This document shows, piece after piece, positions 12,987 through 63,627 of a DNA stretch of 64,000 nt. The translations under genes were made by a program, and so were the position numbers. Each line of letters begins with the position of its first letter. Within the stretch, counting starts at the first letter, position 1. Origin of the DNA: Desulfurococcales archaeon (GTDB lineage: Archaea > Thermoproteota > Thermoprotei_A > Sulfolobales > WAQK01). The stretch is from assembly GCA_027083135.1 (NCBI GenBank), contig JALWQH010000002.1, forward strand, positions 1 to 64,000, given 5' to 3'. The notes under the pieces were generated by a model. It was not told the origin of the DNA. It did not search any database and saw nothing but the letters and a program-made list of their open reading frames with translations.

Positions 12987-14216
12987 TTGGACTTCCAGTT
13001 CTCGGAGGATGAGATAAGATTCAGGGATAGTGTAAGGGAATTCGCTGAGAGATACATTGCTCCCCGCTGGGTCGAGATAGATGAGAAGGGGAAAATACCA
13101 TTAGACTTGATTAAAAGGATGGGCGACCAAGGCCTATTCGCCATCCCCATACCCGAGGAGTATGGGGGTATGGGAGGCACCATGCTGATGGCCGCCATAG
13201 CTGTTGAAGAGATAGCATATCATGATCCAGCCGTAGCTACAGCAGTATACGTGCTCCTAAACAATGGGTGGCCCTTCGCCCTATACCTCCATGGAAGCGA
13301 GGATGCTAAGAACGAAGTCCTGCCGAAAGTCGCTTCAGGCGACGCGTTCTTCGGAATAGCTTCAACAGAGCCTCAGGGAGGCTCAGATGTAGCCGGTATA
13401 AGGACAGTTGCCAGGAAGAAGGGGGATAAGTGGTTGATCAGCGGGGAGAAGAGCTTCATAAGCGGTGTAAGGGAGCTTATGGAGCTTCCTGTAGGCGGAG
13501 GCTTCTTCCTAGTAGCTAAGACGGAGAAGGCGGAATGGGGTCACAGGAACATAACAGACTTCGTGGTTCTTCCAAAATGGAACGGCAAGCTTAAGGAAGG
13601 ATTCAATCCAACCATATATGATGAGATAGGGCGCCATGGCATAAGTACAGGGGGATTCACTCTTGAAGAGTTCGAGGTAGACGACAAGTTCAGGATAGGT
13701 GAGGAGAACAAGGGATTCTACTATGTGCTCGAAGGCTTCAACATCGCTAGAACCCTAGTAGCTGCAGCCACTATTGGTAGTGCTAGATGGGCTCTCGACA
13801 AGGCTGTGGAGTGGCTCAGGGAGAGGAGGCTCTTCCAGGGCAGGCCCCTCGCATCCTTCCAGGGAATAAGCTTCAAGTTCGCCGAACTCTACGCTGAGCT
13901 TGAGGCTGCGAAGTATTTTGTCTATAAGGCTGCCTGGATGATAGACAAAGTATACATTGAGAAGGATCCAACATATAAGCCCAAAGACCTCAATGTACCC
14001 GTATCTCTCGCGAAGCTTAAGGGGCCTGAAACAGCTACAAGGATATATGAAGAGGTTCTTAAATGGCATGGAGCACTAGGCTATACTAAGGAGTGCAACC
14101 TTTACAGAGGGTGGCTGGGCACGTTCTCCTATACTATTGGCGCTGAGGGAGCCCAGAATATCATGCGGTACATTATTGCCAGGGACGTAATTGGAAGCGA
14201 GTATGTTAGAGGATGA
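12987..14216 (+). CDS. Acyl-CoA dehydrogenase
   Basis: 409 residues, a full-length FAD enzyme that would introduce the alpha-beta double bond in acyl-CoA. Visible are the N-terminal helical domain, the FAD-contacting beta domain (ASTEPQGGSDVAG, WLISGEKSFISG) and the C-terminal helical domain with WHGALGYTKE. The C-terminal segment IGAEGAQNIMRYIIAR replaces the usual YEGT with a GAEGA form but keeps the Glu. The TTG start follows GAGGTG. Electrons would pass to the EtfBA/FixCX set directly downstream. Confidence 0.88.
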   Translation: MDFQFSEDEIRFRDSVREFAERYIAPRWVEIDEKGKIPLDLIKRMGDQGLFAIPIPEEYGGMGGTMLMAAIAVEEIAYHDPAVATAVYVLLNNGWPFALYLHGSEDAKNEVLPKVASGDAFFGIASTEPQGGSDVAGIRTVARKKGDKWLISGEKSFISGVRELMELPVGGGFFLVAKTEKAEWGHRNITDFVVLPKWNGKLKEGFNPTIYDEIGRHGISTGGFTLEEFEVDDKFRIGEENKGFYYVLEGFNIARTLVAAATIGSARWALDKAVEWLRERRLFQGRPLASFQGISFKFAELYAELEAAKYFVYKAAWMIDKVYIEKDPTYKPKDLNVPVSLAKLKGPETATRIYEEVLKWHGALGYTKECNLYRGWLGTFSYTIGAEGAQNIMRYIIARDVIGSEYVRG

Positions 14217-14289
14217 TCCCCCTAGTCTAGGCAAGCTTAACGCCTCTTATTTTTATATAACCTCTCAGCACCATTATGGGGGAGCAGGT

Positions 14290-15063
14290 TTGAGGATCCT
14301 AGTGGCAGCGAAGCTAAGCCTTGATGCTGGGCAGCTTAAATTCGACTCCTCAGGACATCCACTGATAGATGCCTGTCCAAGGAGAATGGGGGACGCTGAT
14401 AAATGCGCAGTGGAGGAGGCGGTGAGGGCGAAGGAGAAGCTGGGGGCAGAGACAGTAGTTGTAACTATAGGTGGAAGCGCAGAGCATGCGAGGATAATAA
14501 GAGATGCTTACGCCATGGGCATAGACAAGGGATACATTGTGAGAATAAATGAGCCTGAGACGCTAAGCCTGCCAACAGTTGCCAGGATTATTGCTGAGAT
14601 ATATAGGAGGACAGGGCCCTACGACCTAGTGTTTCTAGGCGTAGGATCCAATGATACCCACTCATCCATGCTGGCACCCATGCTATCATCCATGCTAGAC
14701 ATCCCCCTCCTGCCAAGCATAGACAAGCTAGATGTGAAGAATGATGGCGTGGAGGGAATAGCAACTATGGAGGACGGCTCCTACACGTTTAGGGCAAGGT
14801 TCCCAGCAGTAATATCCATAACCTCGGAGGCAAATGAGCCTAGAATACCCACTCTTAGAGCCATACTTAAGTCGAAGAGAATACCGATACAAGAGGTCAG
14901 CCCAGAAGATCTCGGCGTGAATGTTGAGAGAATAAGGCTGGAAAATGTTGAGAGGTTCATCTTACCTAGGAGAAGAATACTAATGGAGGCGGGGGATCAG
15001 TCGCAGATAGAGGAGGCTGTGGGCAAGCTTCTAGAGGCCCTTAGATCTGAGGGTGTAATATAG
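14290..15063 (+). CDS. etfB: Electron transfer flavoprotein beta subunit
   Basis: 257 residues from a TTG start preceded by GGGGGAGCAGG. The longer frame back to 14191 would overlap the acyl-CoA dehydrogenase and lacks family similarity. The start RILVAAKLSLDAGQL, the segment GAETVVVTIGG, and LVFLGVGSNDTHSSMLAPMLSSML are the ETF-beta/FixA pattern, where a second cofactor (AMP or FAD) is held. Forms a heterodimer with EtfA downstream, ten bases away. In Etf sets with FixC and FixX, EtfB can hold the bifurcating FAD. Confidence 0.85.
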   Translation: MRILVAAKLSLDAGQLKFDSSGHPLIDACPRRMGDADKCAVEEAVRAKEKLGAETVVVTIGGSAEHARIIRDAYAMGIDKGYIVRINEPETLSLPTVARIIAEIYRRTGPYDLVFLGVGSNDTHSSMLAPMLSSMLDIPLLPSIDKLDVKNDGVEGIATMEDGSYTFRARFPAVISITSEANEPRIPTLRAILKSKRIPIQEVSPEDLGVNVERIRLENVERFILPRRRILMEAGDQSQIEEAVGKLLEALRSEGVI

Positions 15064-15073
15064 GTGGTGAGCG

Positions 15074-15982
15074 ATGCGCATCCTGGTTTACGCTGATAAT
15101 GCCTCCTGGCTTAAGCAGCTTAGAGGCCTTGCAGACAAGCTGGAAGCAGAGGCCTGTGCACTAGTCTTCGACGGAAACCTGGTTGAGGAGGCTTCAAGAC
15201 TGTTCAGCAGAGTATATTACTCAAGCCTCCAAGCCTTCAACCCGCTTCAAGCTGCACACGTAGCGGCTAAGGCGCTGGAGAAATGCAATCCAGACATCAT
15301 GGCGGCTCCATGCACCAATAAGGGGAGAATCGTAGCAGGATTATTCTCAGCTCTGAGCGGAGGACTACCTGTAAGCGATGTCATCAGCGTGGAGGCTGAG
15401 GGGGAGGAGCTGAGAGTAAAGCGCCTTGTTTTCGGTGGAACCGCGTCAGCCAGCCTCAGAGTGAATGTGCCTGCAGTGCTATGTGTATCCCCTGGAGCCA
15501 TGCCTGAAGCAACGTATAGGGGTTCCATAGGAGTAGTGGAGGAGCTTAGGGCTGAGAGTGCTGGGGGAATAGAGGTAGAATTTAAGGCTAGGGAGGCCGT
15601 AGGAGTAGAGCCTGACAAAGCCGATGTAGTTGTTGTGGCTGGGAGAGGCGTGAAAAGAAGAGAGGATCTATCAATGATAAGGGAGCTTGCAGAGCTTCTG
15701 GGAGGAGCCTGGAGTGTGACGAGGCCTCTAGCAGCAGATTATGGGTGGAGTGACACGTGGATAGGGATATCAGGATTATCAATAGCGCCGCGGTTATACA
15801 TAGGCGTAGGGGTTTCAGGCCAGCCTCACCACATGATGGGTGTAAGAGGGGCAAAGATCATAGTGGCGGTAAACAAGGATCCAAATGCCCCCATATTCAA
15901 TGAAGCTGACTATGGAATTATAGGCGACCTATACAAGGTTCTGCCCGTGCTTATAAGGAGGCTTAAGGAGAGGGGAGCCTAG
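15074..15982 (+). CDS. etfA: Electron transfer flavoprotein alpha subunit
   Basis: 302 residues, FixB/EtfA family. An N-terminal Rossmann-like half is followed by a C-terminal FAD-binding half with VVVAGRGVKRREDL, ELAELLGGAWSVTRPLAADYGW, RLYIGVGVSGQPHHMMGVRGAK and IVAVNKDPNAPIFNEADYGIIGDL, all typical. It carries the electron-transferring FAD of the ETF heterodimer in the cytoplasm. ATG 15074 has GGTGG upstream. FixC starts three bases after its stop. Confidence 0.88.
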   Translation: MRILVYADNASWLKQLRGLADKLEAEACALVFDGNLVEEASRLFSRVYYSSLQAFNPLQAAHVAAKALEKCNPDIMAAPCTNKGRIVAGLFSALSGGLPVSDVISVEAEGEELRVKRLVFGGTASASLRVNVPAVLCVSPGAMPEATYRGSIGVVEELRAESAGGIEVEFKAREAVGVEPDKADVVVVAGRGVKRREDLSMIRELAELLGGAWSVTRPLAADYGWSDTWIGISGLSIAPRLYIGVGVSGQPHHMMGVRGAKIIVAVNKDPNAPIFNEADYGIIGDLYKVLPVLIRRLKERGA

Positions 15983-15985
15983 ATC

Positions 15986-17275
15986 TTGGCTGAGGAGAGG
16001 TTTGACGTAGTAGTTGTAGGGGGAGGGCCTGCAGGCCTATCAGCAGCATATTTTCTATCTAAGGCTGGGTTCAGCGTAGCCGTACTGGAGAGAGGCGGCA
16101 GGCTGGGCTCCAAGAACATGTTCGGCGGACGCATATATTCCCATGTCTTCGACAAGTATTTTCCAAGCGGCTGGAGAAATGAGGCGCCCGTAGAGAGGTG
16201 GGTTAGGCGTGAACGTTTCTCCCTCCTCTGTAAGGGACAGGCTGTAAGCATGGAGTACTGGGCGTCAAGAAGCCCTGGGAAATATGATAGCTTTACAGCA
16301 TTCCTCACCAGGTTTCTGGAATGGATGGGCAGCCTCGTTGAAAGCGAGGGAGGCCTGATAGCCACTGGAGTGAAGGTTGATAAGCTGAAGATCAGCGAGG
16401 GGAAAGTTATAGGCGTGGAGGCAGGTGGAGACGAGCTTGAAGCAGGCTACGTGCTTATAGCTGAGGGCATAAACACCATTCTCTTAGAGCAGCATGGCCT
16501 TCGCCCAAGGCCGCGGTTAGAGTCAACAGCCATAGGTGTTAAGGAGGTTATAAGGCTTGGCGAGAACACCATAAATAAGAGGTTTAATCTCTCAGGCGGG
16601 GAGGGTGTAGCACAGTTATTTCTAGGAGACTTCCTTAAAAATGCGAGAGGAGGGGGCTTCTTATACACAATGAAGGATTATGTCACCCTAGGCGTAGTCG
16701 TGAGGCTGGGCGACATAGGATCATCGGAGATAAGTGTAAGAGATGTGGCTGAGGATCTGAGGCTTCATCCATTCATTAAAAGCATGCTTGAAGGCGGAGT
16801 AATGGTGGAATACTCCGCGCATCTTGTAAGAGAAGGGGGGACAAGGGATCTCATGGACAAGCCTTATGGGCCCGGCTACATGGTTCTAGGCGATGCTGCA
16901 GGCTACCTCTTAAACACAGGCTTCTCTATACGTGGAGTCGATCTCGCAGTGGAGACGGGGAGACTTGCAGCAGAGGCTGCGGCTAAATGCTTGGAGAAGG
17001 GTGGAGAACCAACCTGCACATCGCTTTACGGAGAGATGCTTAGAAGAAGCATTGCTAGAAGAGTCTTAGAGAAATATAAGATGCTCCCAGAATTCATGAA
17101 TAATTATAGACTCTACGCTATTTACCCCCAGCTAGCATGCAGTACTCTTGCAGGCATATATACAACCGATGAAGAACCCCTTAAACTATGGGAATCGCTT
17201 AGCCGTGCCCGTAAGGGTAAGATATCCCTTATCTCAATGCTCATGGATCTCCTAAGAGGTGTGAGAGCACTATGA
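15986..17275 (+). CDS. fixC: ETF-quinone oxidoreductase-like flavoprotein FixC
   Basis: 429 residues. The N-terminal dinucleotide motif VVVVGGGPAGLSAAYFLSKAG binds FAD; the C-terminal GYMVLGDAAGYLLNTGFSIRGVDLAVETG is the second FAD motif of the geranylgeranyl-reductase/ETF-QO superfamily. In EtfABCX complexes this subunit reduces quinone at the membrane surface. TTG start at 15986 follows GGGGAG; the stop overlaps FixX in ATGA, supporting fixed stoichiometry. A stand-alone geranylgeranyl reductase is ruled out by the neighbours. Confidence 0.85.
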   Translation: MAEERFDVVVVGGGPAGLSAAYFLSKAGFSVAVLERGGRLGSKNMFGGRIYSHVFDKYFPSGWRNEAPVERWVRRERFSLLCKGQAVSMEYWASRSPGKYDSFTAFLTRFLEWMGSLVESEGGLIATGVKVDKLKISEGKVIGVEAGGDELEAGYVLIAEGINTILLEQHGLRPRPRLESTAIGVKEVIRLGENTINKRFNLSGGEGVAQLFLGDFLKNARGGGFLYTMKDYVTLGVVVRLGDIGSSEISVRDVAEDLRLHPFIKSMLEGGVMVEYSAHLVREGGTRDLMDKPYGPGYMVLGDAAGYLLNTGFSIRGVDLAVETGRLAAEAAAKCLEKGGEPTCTSLYGEMLRRSIARRVLEKYKMLPEFMNNYRLYAIYPQLACSTLAGIYTTDEEPLKLWESLSRARKGKISLISMLMDLLRGVRAL

Positions 17276-19217: not shown

Positions 19218-21197
19218 CTATTTTCCCTTGAACTGGGGTTTTCGTTTGGAGAGGAATGCGTCTATCCCTTCATGCGCGTCCTCTGTTGCAAATAGGAGGC
19301 CGAAGAGCTCTGCCTCTATTTTTAATCCCTCTTCCAGTGGAAGGCTTGAGGCTTCTTTAACCGCTCGTTTAGCTGCCTGCAGCGCTATTGGAGGCTTCTC
19401 AGCAAGCTTTAAGGCTAATCTCCTAGCCTCCTCTTCTAATCTTTCAGGCGGCACGATCTTGTTGATAAGGCCTATTCTATAGGCTTCCTCGGCTCCTATC
19501 ATGTCTCCCATCATCACCAGCTCTAATGCTCTTCCTACACCTATTATTCTTGGAAGCCTCTGCGTTGCGCCTGCTCCTGGGATGAATCCTAGGTTTATTT
19601 CAGGCTGCCCTAGCCTAGCCTCGGAGGAAGCTATTCTCAGATCGCATGCTAAGGCCAGTTCGAGTCCTCCTCCAAGAGCGTATCCATTTATTGCAGCTAT
19701 GAATGGTTTAGGCGACCTATCTATATGTAGCAGTATTTCTTGGAAGCGTCTTGAAAACCTGTATGCATCTATGGAATTCATGTTCTTAAAGCCGGATACA
19801 TCGGCTCCGGCGCAGAAGGCTCTGCCCTCACCGCTCAGTATCACTGCTCTTACCTCATCATTCTCCAGAACTGTTTTCACAGCTTTGTCTAGATCCTCCA
19901 GCATGGTTGATGTGAGTGCGTTGAGCTTGCTAGGCCTGCTTAGAATAATCCATGCTATTGGAGGCTCTACCTTAACCGCTATATCTCCTATCTTCTCCAC
20001 TCTAACCTCACCGTACTGGTAGAATCCTTTACCAGTCTTCACTCCAAGCATGCCTTCTTCAACCATGTGTTTAATCATGGGGTGCGGCGAGTATTCCTTC
20101 CATCCCGTCTTCTTCCAGAGCTTCTCGAGAGAACTCATTATTCTATCTAAGCCGATCTCGTCTGCAAGTTTGAAGACTCCTTTAGGCCAGCCTAATCCAA
20201 GCTCTGTTGCAACATCTATGTCCTCCTTGCTTGCCACTTCTTGCCCTAAGATCCATGCAGCCTCGTTTATGGGGGGAGCTACCAGGCTGACGGTATCTAC
20301 TACTGCCTTATCTTCGGATAACGCTGGCTTAACGAAGCGTCCTGGCTCGGGGTACTGGTAGAATCCTTTACCAGTCTTCACTCCAAGCGAGTTCTCCCTG
20401 TACTTCTCTTCTAATAGGGGGCATATGTGGATCTCCACTCCCCTCTCCTTCATAGCCTTCATGATTAAGTAGAAGACATCTATGCCGCTATAATCAAGGA
20501 GTTCGAAGACCCCCATAGGGAAGCCCAGCTTATATCGTGCCGTGGCATCTACCTCCTCGATTGAAGCCTCCCCTGCGTGCACCAGCCTGCATCCCTCGTT
20601 AAGCAGCCTTACCAGTATGCGGTTAACCACGAAGCCTGGAATATCCTTGGATACAAGTATGGGTTTCTTGCCGAGGCTTTCAACAAAACTCTTAGCTGTT
20701 TCAACAGTCTCGCTGCTTGTCTTCTCCCCCCGAATGATCTCGACTAACCTCATTATTACAGGAGGGTTGAAGAAGTGTATGCCGATAACCTTGTCTGGAC
20801 GCCGAGTAGCCGCTGCAAGCTCGCTTATAGGCAGGCTGCTTGTATTAGTAGCTATGATAGTATGAGGCGGAGCTGCTTTATCAGCCCGGCTGAACACGTT
20901 TTTCTTAAGCTCCATTTTCTCAGGTACAGCCTCTATAATTAGATCAGCGTTTCCCACAGCCTCTTCCAGGCTTAGAGTGGTGGTTATCCTTGACATCACA
21001 TCCTCTACGCTCTCCTTAAGCCTCCCCTTCTCACCCAGCTTTCCAAGACTCCACCTTATCCTGCGCAACGCGTTTTCAAGGAACTCCTCCGCTATATCCA
21101 TGAGCACAACATTGTAGCCGCTTATAGCTGCGACCTCGGCTATGCCGTGACCCATTGTGCCAGCGCCGATAACAGCTATTCTCGAAATTCTATCCAT
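19218..21197 (-). CDS. 3-hydroxyacyl-CoA dehydrogenase / enoyl-CoA hydratase fusion
   Basis: 659 residues from ATG 21197, which has GGTGA upstream; the frame runs back to 21260 without a signal. The N-terminal Rossmann domain (IAVIGAGTMGHGIAEVAAISG) and 3HCDH domain oxidise 3-hydroxyacyl-CoA with NAD. Two C-terminal 3HCDH repeats follow, each ending LGVKTGKGFYQY. The last 250 residues are a crotonase domain with the oxyanion hole (FCAGAD, ALGGGLELA) and both catalytic Glu positions (GGGLEL and QPEINLGFIPG). Such fusions are common in archaea and would carry out two steps of beta-oxidation or the C4 pathway in a 4-hydroxybutyrate-type cycle. Confidence 0.92.
   Translation of the reverse strand: MDRISRIAVIGAGTMGHGIAEVAAISGYNVVLMDIAEEFLENALRRIRWSLGKLGEKGRLKESVEDVMSRITTTLSLEEAVGNADLIIEAVPEKMELKKNVFSRADKAAPPHTIIATNTSSLPISELAAATRRPDKVIGIHFFNPPVIMRLVEIIRGEKTSSETVETAKSFVESLGKKPILVSKDIPGFVVNRILVRLLNEGCRLVHAGEASIEEVDATARYKLGFPMGVFELLDYSGIDVFYLIMKAMKERGVEIHICPLLEEKYRENSLGVKTGKGFYQYPEPGRFVKPALSEDKAVVDTVSLVAPPINEAAWILGQEVASKEDIDVATELGLGWPKGVFKLADEIGLDRIMSSLEKLWKKTGWKEYSPHPMIKHMVEEGMLGVKTGKGFYQYGEVRVEKIGDIAVKVEPPIAWIILSRPSKLNALTSTMLEDLDKAVKTVLENDEVRAVILSGEGRAFCAGADVSGFKNMNSIDAYRFSRRFQEILLHIDRSPKPFIAAINGYALGGGLELALACDLRIASSEARLGQPEINLGFIPGAGATQRLPRIIGVGRALELVMMGDMIGAEEAYRIGLINKIVPPERLEEEARRLALKLAEKPPIALQAAKRAVKEASSLPLEEGLKIEAELFGLLFATEDAHEGIDAFLSKRKPQFKGK
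20013..20049 (-). repeat. Copy 1 of a 37-bp perfect direct repeat inside the fusion gene
   Basis: The 37 bases at 20013-20049 are identical to 20352-20388, 339 bp (113 codons) away in the same frame. Both encode LGVKTGKGFYQY, the end of the duplicated 3HCDH C-terminal domain. Perfect DNA identity exceeds what protein constraint needs. Confidence 0.9.
20352..20388 (-). repeat. Copy 2 of the 37-bp perfect direct repeat
   Basis: Identical to 20013-20049; see that entry. The surrounding sequence of the two domain copies is much more diverged, so the identity is local. Confidence 0.9.
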
Positions 21198-21274
21198 GAT
21201 TTTCACCAAGTCGAGATATAAGTGGGGAGCACGATAAAAATAGGTTTCAACCCTTATCACACGGTATGTTTAGC

Positions 21275-61405: not shown

Positions 61406-62374
61406 CTACGCCCTTGGAGGCTCTATGCGGGCTCCGAGATCTATGGGTATCACCACTCCATTGATAGCTTCATTGGATGCTAGGAAGTATATTAGCTCAG
61501 CTACTTCCCTGGGTTTTATGAGCCTAGGTATGGGGAGCCTTGCCACATAGTCTGCTATTAGGCTGCGGTTATGCTTCCATAGCTTTAGGGTTGGCCCTGA
61601 CTCCACGAGGCCTGGCGCCACGGCGAAAACCCGTATCCCGCGGCGCGCCAGCTCCTTCGCTAAACTATATGTTAGGCCTGCTAGCCCAGACTTCGCTGCA
61701 GCGTAGTTTGACTGCCCTATGTTCCCTGATAACCCTATCAGCGACGATATGTTCACTATTACTCCTCCATACGCCATGTATTTCAACGCCTCCCTGCTGC
61801 ACAGGTACGCGCCTGTGAGATTAACGTCTATGACTTTCCTCCACTTCTCAGGAGTCATTTTCTCCAGTGTTGAGTCAATGGTTACACCCGCATTATTGAC
61901 CAGTACTTTTATGCGGCCTAGGCTGGAGTATATTTTGCTGAATCCCTCGGATACGCTTTCAGGGCTTGTCACATCCATCTCTACGGCGACAGCTATGCCG
62001 CCCCTACTCCTTATCTCGCCTGCAACCCTTTCAGCAGCCTCTAGATTTATGTCTGCCAAGGCTACTTTGAATCCATGCTCAGCGAACACGCGTGCTATCT
62101 CCGAGCCTATTCCACCAGCCCCGCCTGTAACCACTACTACTCTAGGCTGCTGCGGCTCGGCTTCAGGTATGAATACCCAGATCTCGCCGAAAACACTCTC
62201 CTCCCTTCTAAGCTCACCCCGCATACCCATGCCAAGCACATCCACATATTCTGCAGGTATCCGAGCTACGCGGCGTTCACCCTTATCGTTCTCCACTATG
62301 CCTGCAGCATACATGGCCTTATACGGCTCAGGCGGTATCAGCACCGTGGTATATGAGACCAGCCTCCACACCAT
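61406..62374 (-). CDS. DUF35 OB-fold/SDR fusion reductase
   Basis: 322 residues from ATG 62374, six bases after a full GGAGGTG; GTG 62383 is inside that site. Residues about 5-70 (YTTVLIPPEPYKAMYAAGIVEND, RVARIPAEYV, LGMGMRGELRREES, IWVFIP) have the order of the DUF35 OB-fold that binds acyl-CoA next to thiolases, but without the zinc ribbon. From 79 on is a complete SDR: TGGAGGIG (83-90), NNAG (160-163), S211, Y224, K228. It should reduce 3-oxoacyl-CoA, e.g. acetoacetyl-CoA. Thiolase lies directly upstream, translationally coupled. Confidence 0.8.
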   Translation of the reverse strand: MVWRLVSYTTVLIPPEPYKAMYAAGIVENDKGERRVARIPAEYVDVLGMGMRGELRREESVFGEIWVFIPEAEPQQPRVVVVTGGAGGIGSEIARVFAEHGFKVALADINLEAAERVAGEIRSRGGIAVAVEMDVTSPESVSEGFSKIYSSLGRIKVLVNNAGVTIDSTLEKMTPEKWRKVIDVNLTGAYLCSREALKYMAYGGVIVNISSLIGLSGNIGQSNYAAAKSGLAGLTYSLAKELARRGIRVFAVAPGLVESGPTLKLWKHNRSLIADYVARLPIPRLIKPREVAELIYFLASNEAINGVVIPIDLGARIEPPRA

Positions 62375-62379
62375 GCCTA

Positions 62380-63528
62380 TCACCTCCTCATAACTATGAC
62401 CACGGAGGTGGCTCCCGTGCCTCCATGATTCTCCATCAACCCTATCTCAGCATCTCTAACCTGCCTCTCACCAGCCTCCCCCCTCAGCTGCCAGAATAGC
62501 TCCGCAGCCATGCCTACACCAGTAGCTCCTATTGGGTGGCCCTTAGCCTTCAAGCCTCCACTAGCATTAACCGGGAGTTCACCGTCAAACCATGTGACAT
62601 GATCTCTGAGAAGCCTCGCCCCCCCGCCACGCTCGGCGAAGCCAAGCATCTCGTAGAGTATTATCTCGGATATGGTGAAGGCGTCGTGAACCTCCGCCAA
62701 GTCAAGGTCCTTTGGGGTGAGGCCTGAAGACTTGTAGGCCTGCTGGGAAGCCTTATACGCGGCTATCATAGCTGCCATGTCATCCCTCTCAAACACTCCG
62801 GGCTTATCGTGAGCCATGCCTGCACCCACTATGTAGACGGGGGTGTCGGTATAGCGCTTCGGCTCGCCGCTCACTATAACTGAGGCGGCGCCGTCGCTTA
62901 GGGGGGAGCAGTCGTAAAGCTTGAGTGGAGGGGCAACATAGGGGCTGCGGAGAACATCTTCCACACTTATCCTCCGCTTAAACTGCGCTAGAGGGTTCCT
63001 AAGAGCGTTCTCATGGTTCTTGACTGCCACGAGGGCTAGGTCCTCCTCCCCCACCCCGTATTTATCCATATATACCTTGGCCATCAAGGCGTAGGAGGCG
63101 AAGAAAGGCAGCCCTACAAGTATCTCCTCAGGCGATCCTGCAGCCATGAGCACCTGGTTGGCAACAGTGCTTGTAGGAGCCTTGCTCATCTTCTCGAACC
63201 CCACTACCAGGACGTTTCTAGCGAGGCCTGCTCTTACCATGTTCCATGCGAGAAATATGCCTGTGCCCCCCGCAGAGCAGGCGTTCTCAACCCTGAAGGC
63301 CCTTGCATCAGGGTTTCCAAGATACCTTAAAGCCAGGGGGCCTGAGTGGAGGATCCCGCCGAACCTGTCTGAAAAATTAGCAACTATGACCAAGTCGATC
63401 TCAGAGGGATCAATACCCTTCTCAACGTTCTCCACCACTCCTCTAACAGCCTTCTCAAGCAGCTCCCATGCCTCCAGGCTGCTGCGAGACTCGTAGGGAG
63501 TGCTGAAAGCTGAGACAATTGCCGGCAT
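62380..63528 (-). CDS. Thiolase (acetyl-CoA acetyltransferase/SCP-x type)
   Basis: 382 residues from ATG 63528; GTG 63555 is in frame, but the TATA-like TTTAATTA near 63567-63574 places the transcript start after it, with GGTGATG in the leader. Nucleophilic Cys is in ENACSAGGTGIFLAW; HDAF and NASGGLKAKGHPIGATG complete the site. It condenses or cleaves acyl-CoA. Archaeal thiolases of this type often form a complex with a DUF35 protein; here DUF35 is on the downstream reductase. Confidence 0.88.
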   Translation of the reverse strand: MPAIVSAFSTPYESRSSLEAWELLEKAVRGVVENVEKGIDPSEIDLVIVANFSDRFGGILHSGPLALRYLGNPDARAFRVENACSAGGTGIFLAWNMVRAGLARNVLVVGFEKMSKAPTSTVANQVLMAAGSPEEILVGLPFFASYALMAKVYMDKYGVGEEDLALVAVKNHENALRNPLAQFKRRISVEDVLRSPYVAPPLKLYDCSPLSDGAASVIVSGEPKRYTDTPVYIVGAGMAHDKPGVFERDDMAAMIAAYKASQQAYKSSGLTPKDLDLAEVHDAFTISEIILYEMLGFAERGGGARLLRDHVTWFDGELPVNASGGLKAKGHPIGATGVGMAAELFWQLRGEAGERQVRDAEIGLMENHGGTGATSVVIVMRR

Positions 63529-63627
63529 AGTTAAGGCCACATCACCAAGTGACACCTAGTAGGATGCACCTAATTAAACACTGATACATCCCTGGTCTAA
63601 GAATATATTCGACTATAGGCTAATAGC

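Follow-up and report, generated by a model that had tools for sequence, protein, structure and literature searches.

A gene encoding an SCP2-type thiolase and a gene encoding an OB fold fused to an SDR lie next to each other in a 64,000-nucleotide stretch of DNA from a Desulfurococcales archaeon (the window). These two genes probably encode the subunits of a bifunctional complex in which the fused OB domain docks an NAD-type 3-hydroxyacyl-CoA dehydrogenase onto the thiolase. In the mechanism that we propose, the OB fold would bind the thiolase in the manner of a free DUF35 protein, thereby holding the covalently joined SDR beside it; the SDR would interconvert 3-hydroxyacyl-CoA and 3-oxoacyl-CoA with NAD+/NADH, and the thiolase would cleave (or make) the 3-oxoacyl-CoA. 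One particle would thus carry out the two final steps of a beta-oxidation-like cycle.

The span of 61406-63528 given for the pair by the first-pass annotation uses the ATG starts of both ORFs (Table 1). At the junction, ATG AGG AGG TGA TAGGC ATG, the thiolase stop (TGA, 62380-62382) overlaps the GGAGGTG of the fusion, as that annotation had reported, and the fusion is translationally coupled to the upstream thiolase.

Table 1. Features of the OB-SDR/thiolase gene pair in the window and of the second thiolase gene of the genome.
Feature	Position	Strand	Length or extent	Remarks
OB-SDR fusion gene	61406..62374	-	322 aa from ATG 62374; 325 aa from GTG 62383	AF2 model, pLDDT 82.8
SCP2-type thiolase gene	62380..63555	-	391 aa from GTG 63555; 382 aa from ATG 63528	
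Shine-Dalgarno GGAGGTG of fusion	62381..62387	-		Overlaps thiolase stop; 6 nt 5' of fusion ATG; from sequence
DUF35-type OB fold (predicted)	62165..62368	-	Residues about 3-70	Zinc ribbon absent
OB/SDR linker	62141..62164	-	8 residues	From alignment and DSSP of the model
Classical SDR domain	61433..62140	-	Residues 79-314	TGGAGGIG, beta-2-end Asp (ALADI), NNAG, S211-Y224-K228
Mevalonate-operon thiolase	L038 8445-9608	+		Contig C43; same gene as L001 186-1349

The HMM comparison with PF01796 (OB_ChsH2_C), which had been proposed as a check on the N-terminal part of the fusion, gave a mixed outcome: the first 78 residues alone scored 17.1 bits (E=0.0053), under the Pfam gathering score of 27.1 bits, but a profile built from five fused OB halves matched the DUF35 chain of 6ESQ (6ESQ_E) at E=3e-4. 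The AF2 model of the OB part alone was a confident barrel (pLDDT 93.5). Its top Foldseek matches among 350,542 PDB chains were 6OK1, 6ESQ, 6HTJ, 9MYR, 7PXP and 5M3K, all of them zinc-ribbon/OB proteins and, except for 6HTJ, from thiolase-fold complexes; the matched chains were the DUF35 proteins of Ltp2-ChsH2, thiolase/HMGCS, Sal-Shy, BbsAB and PhlABC, plus the zinc-ribbon/OB protein Trf. By homology and by its modelled fold, the N-terminal domain can be assigned as a DUF35-type OB, in agreement with the first-pass annotation. When the full-length fusion was modelled, none of the solved structures listed as matches spanned both domains, the best alignments covering 239-260 columns per 322 residues.

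The zinc ribbon, whose absence had also been noted earlier, was missing from all 19 fusions, and in the window protein strand 1 of the OB fold starts at residue 3. The linker between OB and SDR was 8-10 residues long in 19/19 aligned fusions. Loss of the ribbon, together with the weak PF01796 score, could mean that the OB part is a relict, or a folding or solubility domain, and that the thiolase and the SDR are merely co-expressed. We consider this very unlikely, since seven OB columns showed no variation among 19 sequences that span several archaeal phyla, and the fusion was never found apart from its thiolase among the 22 loci described below.

The SDR half matched adh_short at E=6e-57 (Pfam), and together with the OB model and profile this confirmed the earlier description of an OB fold joined to a complete SDR. 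The residues S211, Y224 and K228 named there are correct for the 322-residue product and all three were invariant across 18 aligned fusions, as were TGxxxGxG, NNAG and Ser-Tyr-xxx-Lys, save for one NNAG variant (L049). By the usual SDR rule, a beta-2 strand ending in an acidic residue indicates NAD(H). Since Asp ends beta-2 in 18 of the 19 fusions, including that of the window, the fused SDR is predicted to be of the NAD(H) type, with the reservation that this is a sequence rule and that NADH is also able to drive reduction.

The best single-domain PDB matches of the SDR were FabGs. The model of the acetoacetyl-CoA reductase PhaB (TIGR01829) gave 187.8 bits for the window SDR, below its cut-off of 302.1, and 2ET6, a (3R)-hydroxyacyl-CoA dehydrogenase, was rejected as the nearest solved relative since its score seems to be summed over two SDR domains. 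In a tree against a small outgroup the SDR halves clustered together (support 89), the window SDR being the most divergent member of the set (branch 0.83). In the C-terminal part of the window SDR (61433-61700), the substrate loop is unlike that of every other fusion, with ESGPTLKLWKHNRS in place of the usual TRM motif loop.

The window thiolase matched PF22691 (1e-42) and PF00108 (1.6e-25), and scored 386 bits against NF004720, under the cut-off of 420. The residues of SCP2-type thiolases (nucleophilic Cys, His of HD[CA]F and His of GHP) were all present, namely Cys93 in VENACSAGG, His in HDAF and His in GHP, together with an NHGG loop. The second Cys, that of the HDCF motif, was absent, with HDAF in 19/19 thiolases of fused pairs. 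HDAF for HDCF was rejected as a hallmark of the fused clade, because HDAF or HDAY also occurs in most nucleophile-keeping mevalonate-type thiolases of the order. The thiolases of the fused pairs formed a single clade (SH-aLRT 99).

A search for the OB+SDR order in other genomes, another check proposed at the outset, found the fusion at 22 distinct loci, counted after removal of duplicates by matching lengths and scores. The thiolase gene was directly upstream on the same strand in 22/22, separated by -11 to +6 bp at the 19 loci measured. The coupled pair is thus conserved, as had been supposed, and since the same order recurs at 22 distinct loci the arrangement is not a matter of chance. The hosts are heat-loving and subsurface archaea and belong to the Desulfurococcales/Sulfolobales, a third Thermoproteota order, the Bathyarchaeota and Hadarchaeota-type MAGs; 16 of the loci (L042-L055, L065 and L071) came from a thiolase-profile scan of named genomes and represent Desulfurococcales, Sulfolobales, Bathyarchaeota and Hadarchaeota/Hodarchaeaceae MAGs. 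A search of 398 genomes of the phylum with the OB half revealed the fusion in four other genomes, followed by a weak tail of ordinary DUF35 proteins, mostly of 120-165 aa. The two classes were separated by a profile of 19 OB halves, complete fusions scoring 102-135 bits (frames of 317-356 aa) and free DUF35 proteins at most 41 bits. In the order, 11/214 genomes carry the fusion, and one fusion event followed by loss or transfer is the simplest history for this patchy spread.

Outside the fused group, a free DUF35 gene adjoins the next-best thiolases (L056 onward) at nearly every locus examined, indicating that the fusion fills the slot of the docking protein. Since the OB-SDR replaces the DUF35 gene, the SDR would most likely be docked on the thiolase. 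Docking of the OB fold, predicted from homology, is well supported by this synteny and the solved DUF35-thiolase complexes. In Sal-Shy, the DUF35 OB and an N-terminal helix wrap helix alpha-4 of the thiolase fold, and the zinc ribbon shapes the substrate cleft (PMC12329534). The window fusion has neither the ribbon nor the N-terminal helix, which counts against docking.

The first-pass annotation had proposed that the thiolase product is passed through the OB fold to the reductase, skipping release. The first part of this proposal was not supported by the archaeal precedent, in which the CoA site is common to thiolase and HMG-CoA synthase and DUF35 is a scaffold (PMC12329534). The second found no support in precedent either, as Shy-Sal, a DUF35-fused complex tested for channelling, leaks 93% of its intermediate (PMC12329534). 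The same leak suggests that the OB fold may be a tether only, so that the complex raises the local concentration of the intermediate and no channelling occurs. Such a tether, which is compatible with docking and denies channelling only, is a serious possibility to which we give slightly less than even weight; on the other hand, a linker of 8-10 residues in 19/19 fusions, against 26 disordered residues in Shy (PMC12329534), implies a much tighter geometry. Channelling in the OB-SDR/thiolase pair is possible.

The direction of the reaction was approached through the neighbouring genes. In Sulfolobales-type MAGs, genes for LivG/LivF-type ABC ATPases, a KAS III-like protein, a CoA-transferase III, an alpha/beta hydrolase and an HTH_10 regulator lie 5' of the pair on the same strand. 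This upstream array was complete in L043 and L045-L047, L042 lacked the CoA-transferase and in L044 the ORF call differed at the KAS III position. At L043 (135-8113) the order is LivFG-type ATPases, KAS III-like, CoA-transferase III, hydrolase, HTH_10, thiolase and OB-SDR, and it is near-identical in L042 and L044-L047; arrays of this type are probably operons for uptake and breakdown. At Hadarchaeota-type loci a family I CoA-transferase gene follows the pair, and an AMP-forming acyl-CoA ligase gene is near in L033. Since the neighbours in the relatives fit the breakdown of an acid, the oxidative direction is preferred over condensation followed by reduction; in net terms, the relatives most likely oxidise an imported, CoA-activated acid and then cleave it by thiolysis.

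Condensation of two acyl-CoAs, with immediate and channelled reduction of the 3-oxoacyl-CoA by the SDR to give 3-hydroxyacyl-CoA for synthesis, would use the same parts. This direction, favoured by the first-pass annotation, would suit the FabG-like SDR, and the short linker could keep the two sites close. It nevertheless seems improbable, as the beta-2-terminal Asp points to NAD(H), the operons of the relatives look catabolic, with genes for acid uptake and CoA activation, and Shy-Sal operates without channelling. Synthesis of PHB was also rejected, no class III PHA synthase being matched in the genome, which likewise counts against this direction; the negative is a soft one, since the control gave just a weak match in one genome.

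The catabolic genes of the relatives' loci were absent around the pair in the window neighbourhood, and no HMG-CoA synthase gene was found among its neighbours. Given this and the divergence of the window SDR, its substrate has perhaps changed, as its altered loop also suggests. The acyl-CoA dehydrogenase at 12987 and the crotonase/HAD fusion at 19218, named earlier as possible suppliers or users of the product, are both real but lie more than 40 kb from the pair. The former is followed in a row by EtfB, EtfA and a FixC-like oxidoreductase (12987-17275, forward strand). The latter (19218-21260) is a 680-aa 3-hydroxyacyl-CoA dehydrogenase/enoyl-CoA hydratase fusion and may be another source of acetoacetyl-CoA. 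Together with the pair, these genes are enough for a beta-oxidation-like cycle.

Only two thiolases were detected in this genome by three independent queries. The second is encoded in a mevalonate operon (HMG-CoA synthase, thiolase, DUF35 and HMG-CoA reductase) on contig C43 (L001/L038). It has VEDADNSG at the site of the nucleophilic Cys, HDTTT for HDAFT and LGLGG for the NxGG loop, and lies on a long branch (1.33), whereas 27 of its best relatives in the order, one of them from the same family, keep the Cys; the HMGCS, DUF35 and HMGR genes of the operon are otherwise intact. Contamination of the contigs was rejected, as the compositions of C2 and C43 agree (tetranucleotide r 0.94-0.96). Thiolase-like genes adjoining DUF35 in another Thermoproteota family (L039 7477-8634 and L040 6792-7940) likewise have no nucleophilic Cys (VEAATASG and MEAAEASG).

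Because the mevalonate-operon thiolase is without the nucleophilic Cys, the window thiolase appears, judging from its residues, to be the only catalytically plausible one detected, and is probably the only source of thiolase-made acetoacetyl-CoA in this genome. The dead mevalonate thiolase raises the question of where the acetoacetyl-CoA for membrane lipids originates in this archaeon. It would come from the window thiolase or from the crotonase/HAD protein, unless the Cys-less complex works otherwise.

In this lineage only, and in addition to docking, the pair may thus have been recruited to isoprenoid synthesis, the window thiolase feeding HMG-CoA synthase and the SDR drawing on or feeding the same pool. 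The two thiolases, one of them Cys-less, speak for this, as does 4-hydroxybutyryl-CoA dehydratase (HpaB_N), which was not found in the genome with a positive control in Sulfolobus acidocaldarius and whose absence also makes a role in the 4-hydroxybutyrate cycle unlikely. Since the crotonase/HAD protein could make acetoacetyl-CoA instead and other fusion-bearing genomes retain further thiolases, we regard recruitment as a tentative minority reading. More doubtful still is a stronger form of the docking model, in which the zinc-free OB and its short linker would rigidly lock the NAD-linked dehydrogenase on the thiolase so that the 3-oxoacyl-CoA stays unreleased, and in which, in the window lineage, this thiolase would be the sole one and the dead thiolase of the mevalonate complex a scaffold.

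Several known systems resemble the pair. In the archaeal thiolase/HMGCS/DUF35 complex, of which this genome carries an operon copy elsewhere with the Cys-less thiolase, the thiolase belongs to the same superfamily branch and the OB is homologous (E=3e-4), but DUF35 is a separate zinc-ribbon protein and the partner is HMG-CoA synthase. BbsAB, the benzoylsuccinyl-CoA thiolase (7PXP), also combines a thiolase with a DUF35-type subunit, and an SDR 3-hydroxyacyl-CoA dehydrogenase, BbsCD, acts earlier in its pathway; there, however, DUF35 and SDR are separate proteins and a zinc finger is present. In operons of the PhaA-PhaB type a thiolase adjoins a FabG-like SDR, but these have no OB domain, an NADPH-dependent reductase and a PHA synthase.

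Another covalent join of DUF35 to its partner enzyme was observed at L066 7155-8591, L067 7155-8591 and L110 7215-8663 (Natrinema), where the protein encoded beside a thiolase combines a KAS III/HMGCS-like domain with a zinc ribbon (plus OB). At L098 (7109-8131), a 340-aa protein encoded beside a thiolase-like gene has a C-terminal zinc ribbon and OB after about 210 N-terminal residues.

The first-pass annotation was aware of no description of such a fusion, but Krishna et al. (2010) note in one line that DUF35 homologues occur joined to SDR-related Rossmann domains (PMC2954200). The domain pairing is therefore already known, although no sequences, order, partner or function were given and a zinc ribbon was stated for all DUF35 homologues. 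In the open-licence literature we found neither the zinc-free OB-SDR described, nor its constant association with a thiolase, nor its role.

HMG-CoA synthase, hydratases and acylases are known to be clipped by DUF35 to enzymes of the thiolase fold; if a dehydrogenase does use that dock too, the OB fold would be a general adaptor for steps beside C-C cleavage, and a rigid lock, if real, would add a third class to the enzyme assemblies built on DUF35. The short, constant linker makes the pair a good system to settle channelling in DUF35-fused complexes, left open by the 2025 Sal-Shy paper. Sal-Shy and Ltp2-ChsH1/ChsH2, the steroid side-chain aldolase/hydratase systems (9MYR and 6OK1), share with it a thiolase-fold C-C enzyme and a DUF35 fused to the enzyme of a neighbouring step, but differ in having a MaoC-type hydratase rather than an SDR as partner, a zinc finger, retro-aldol chemistry and, in Shy, a long and flexible linker.
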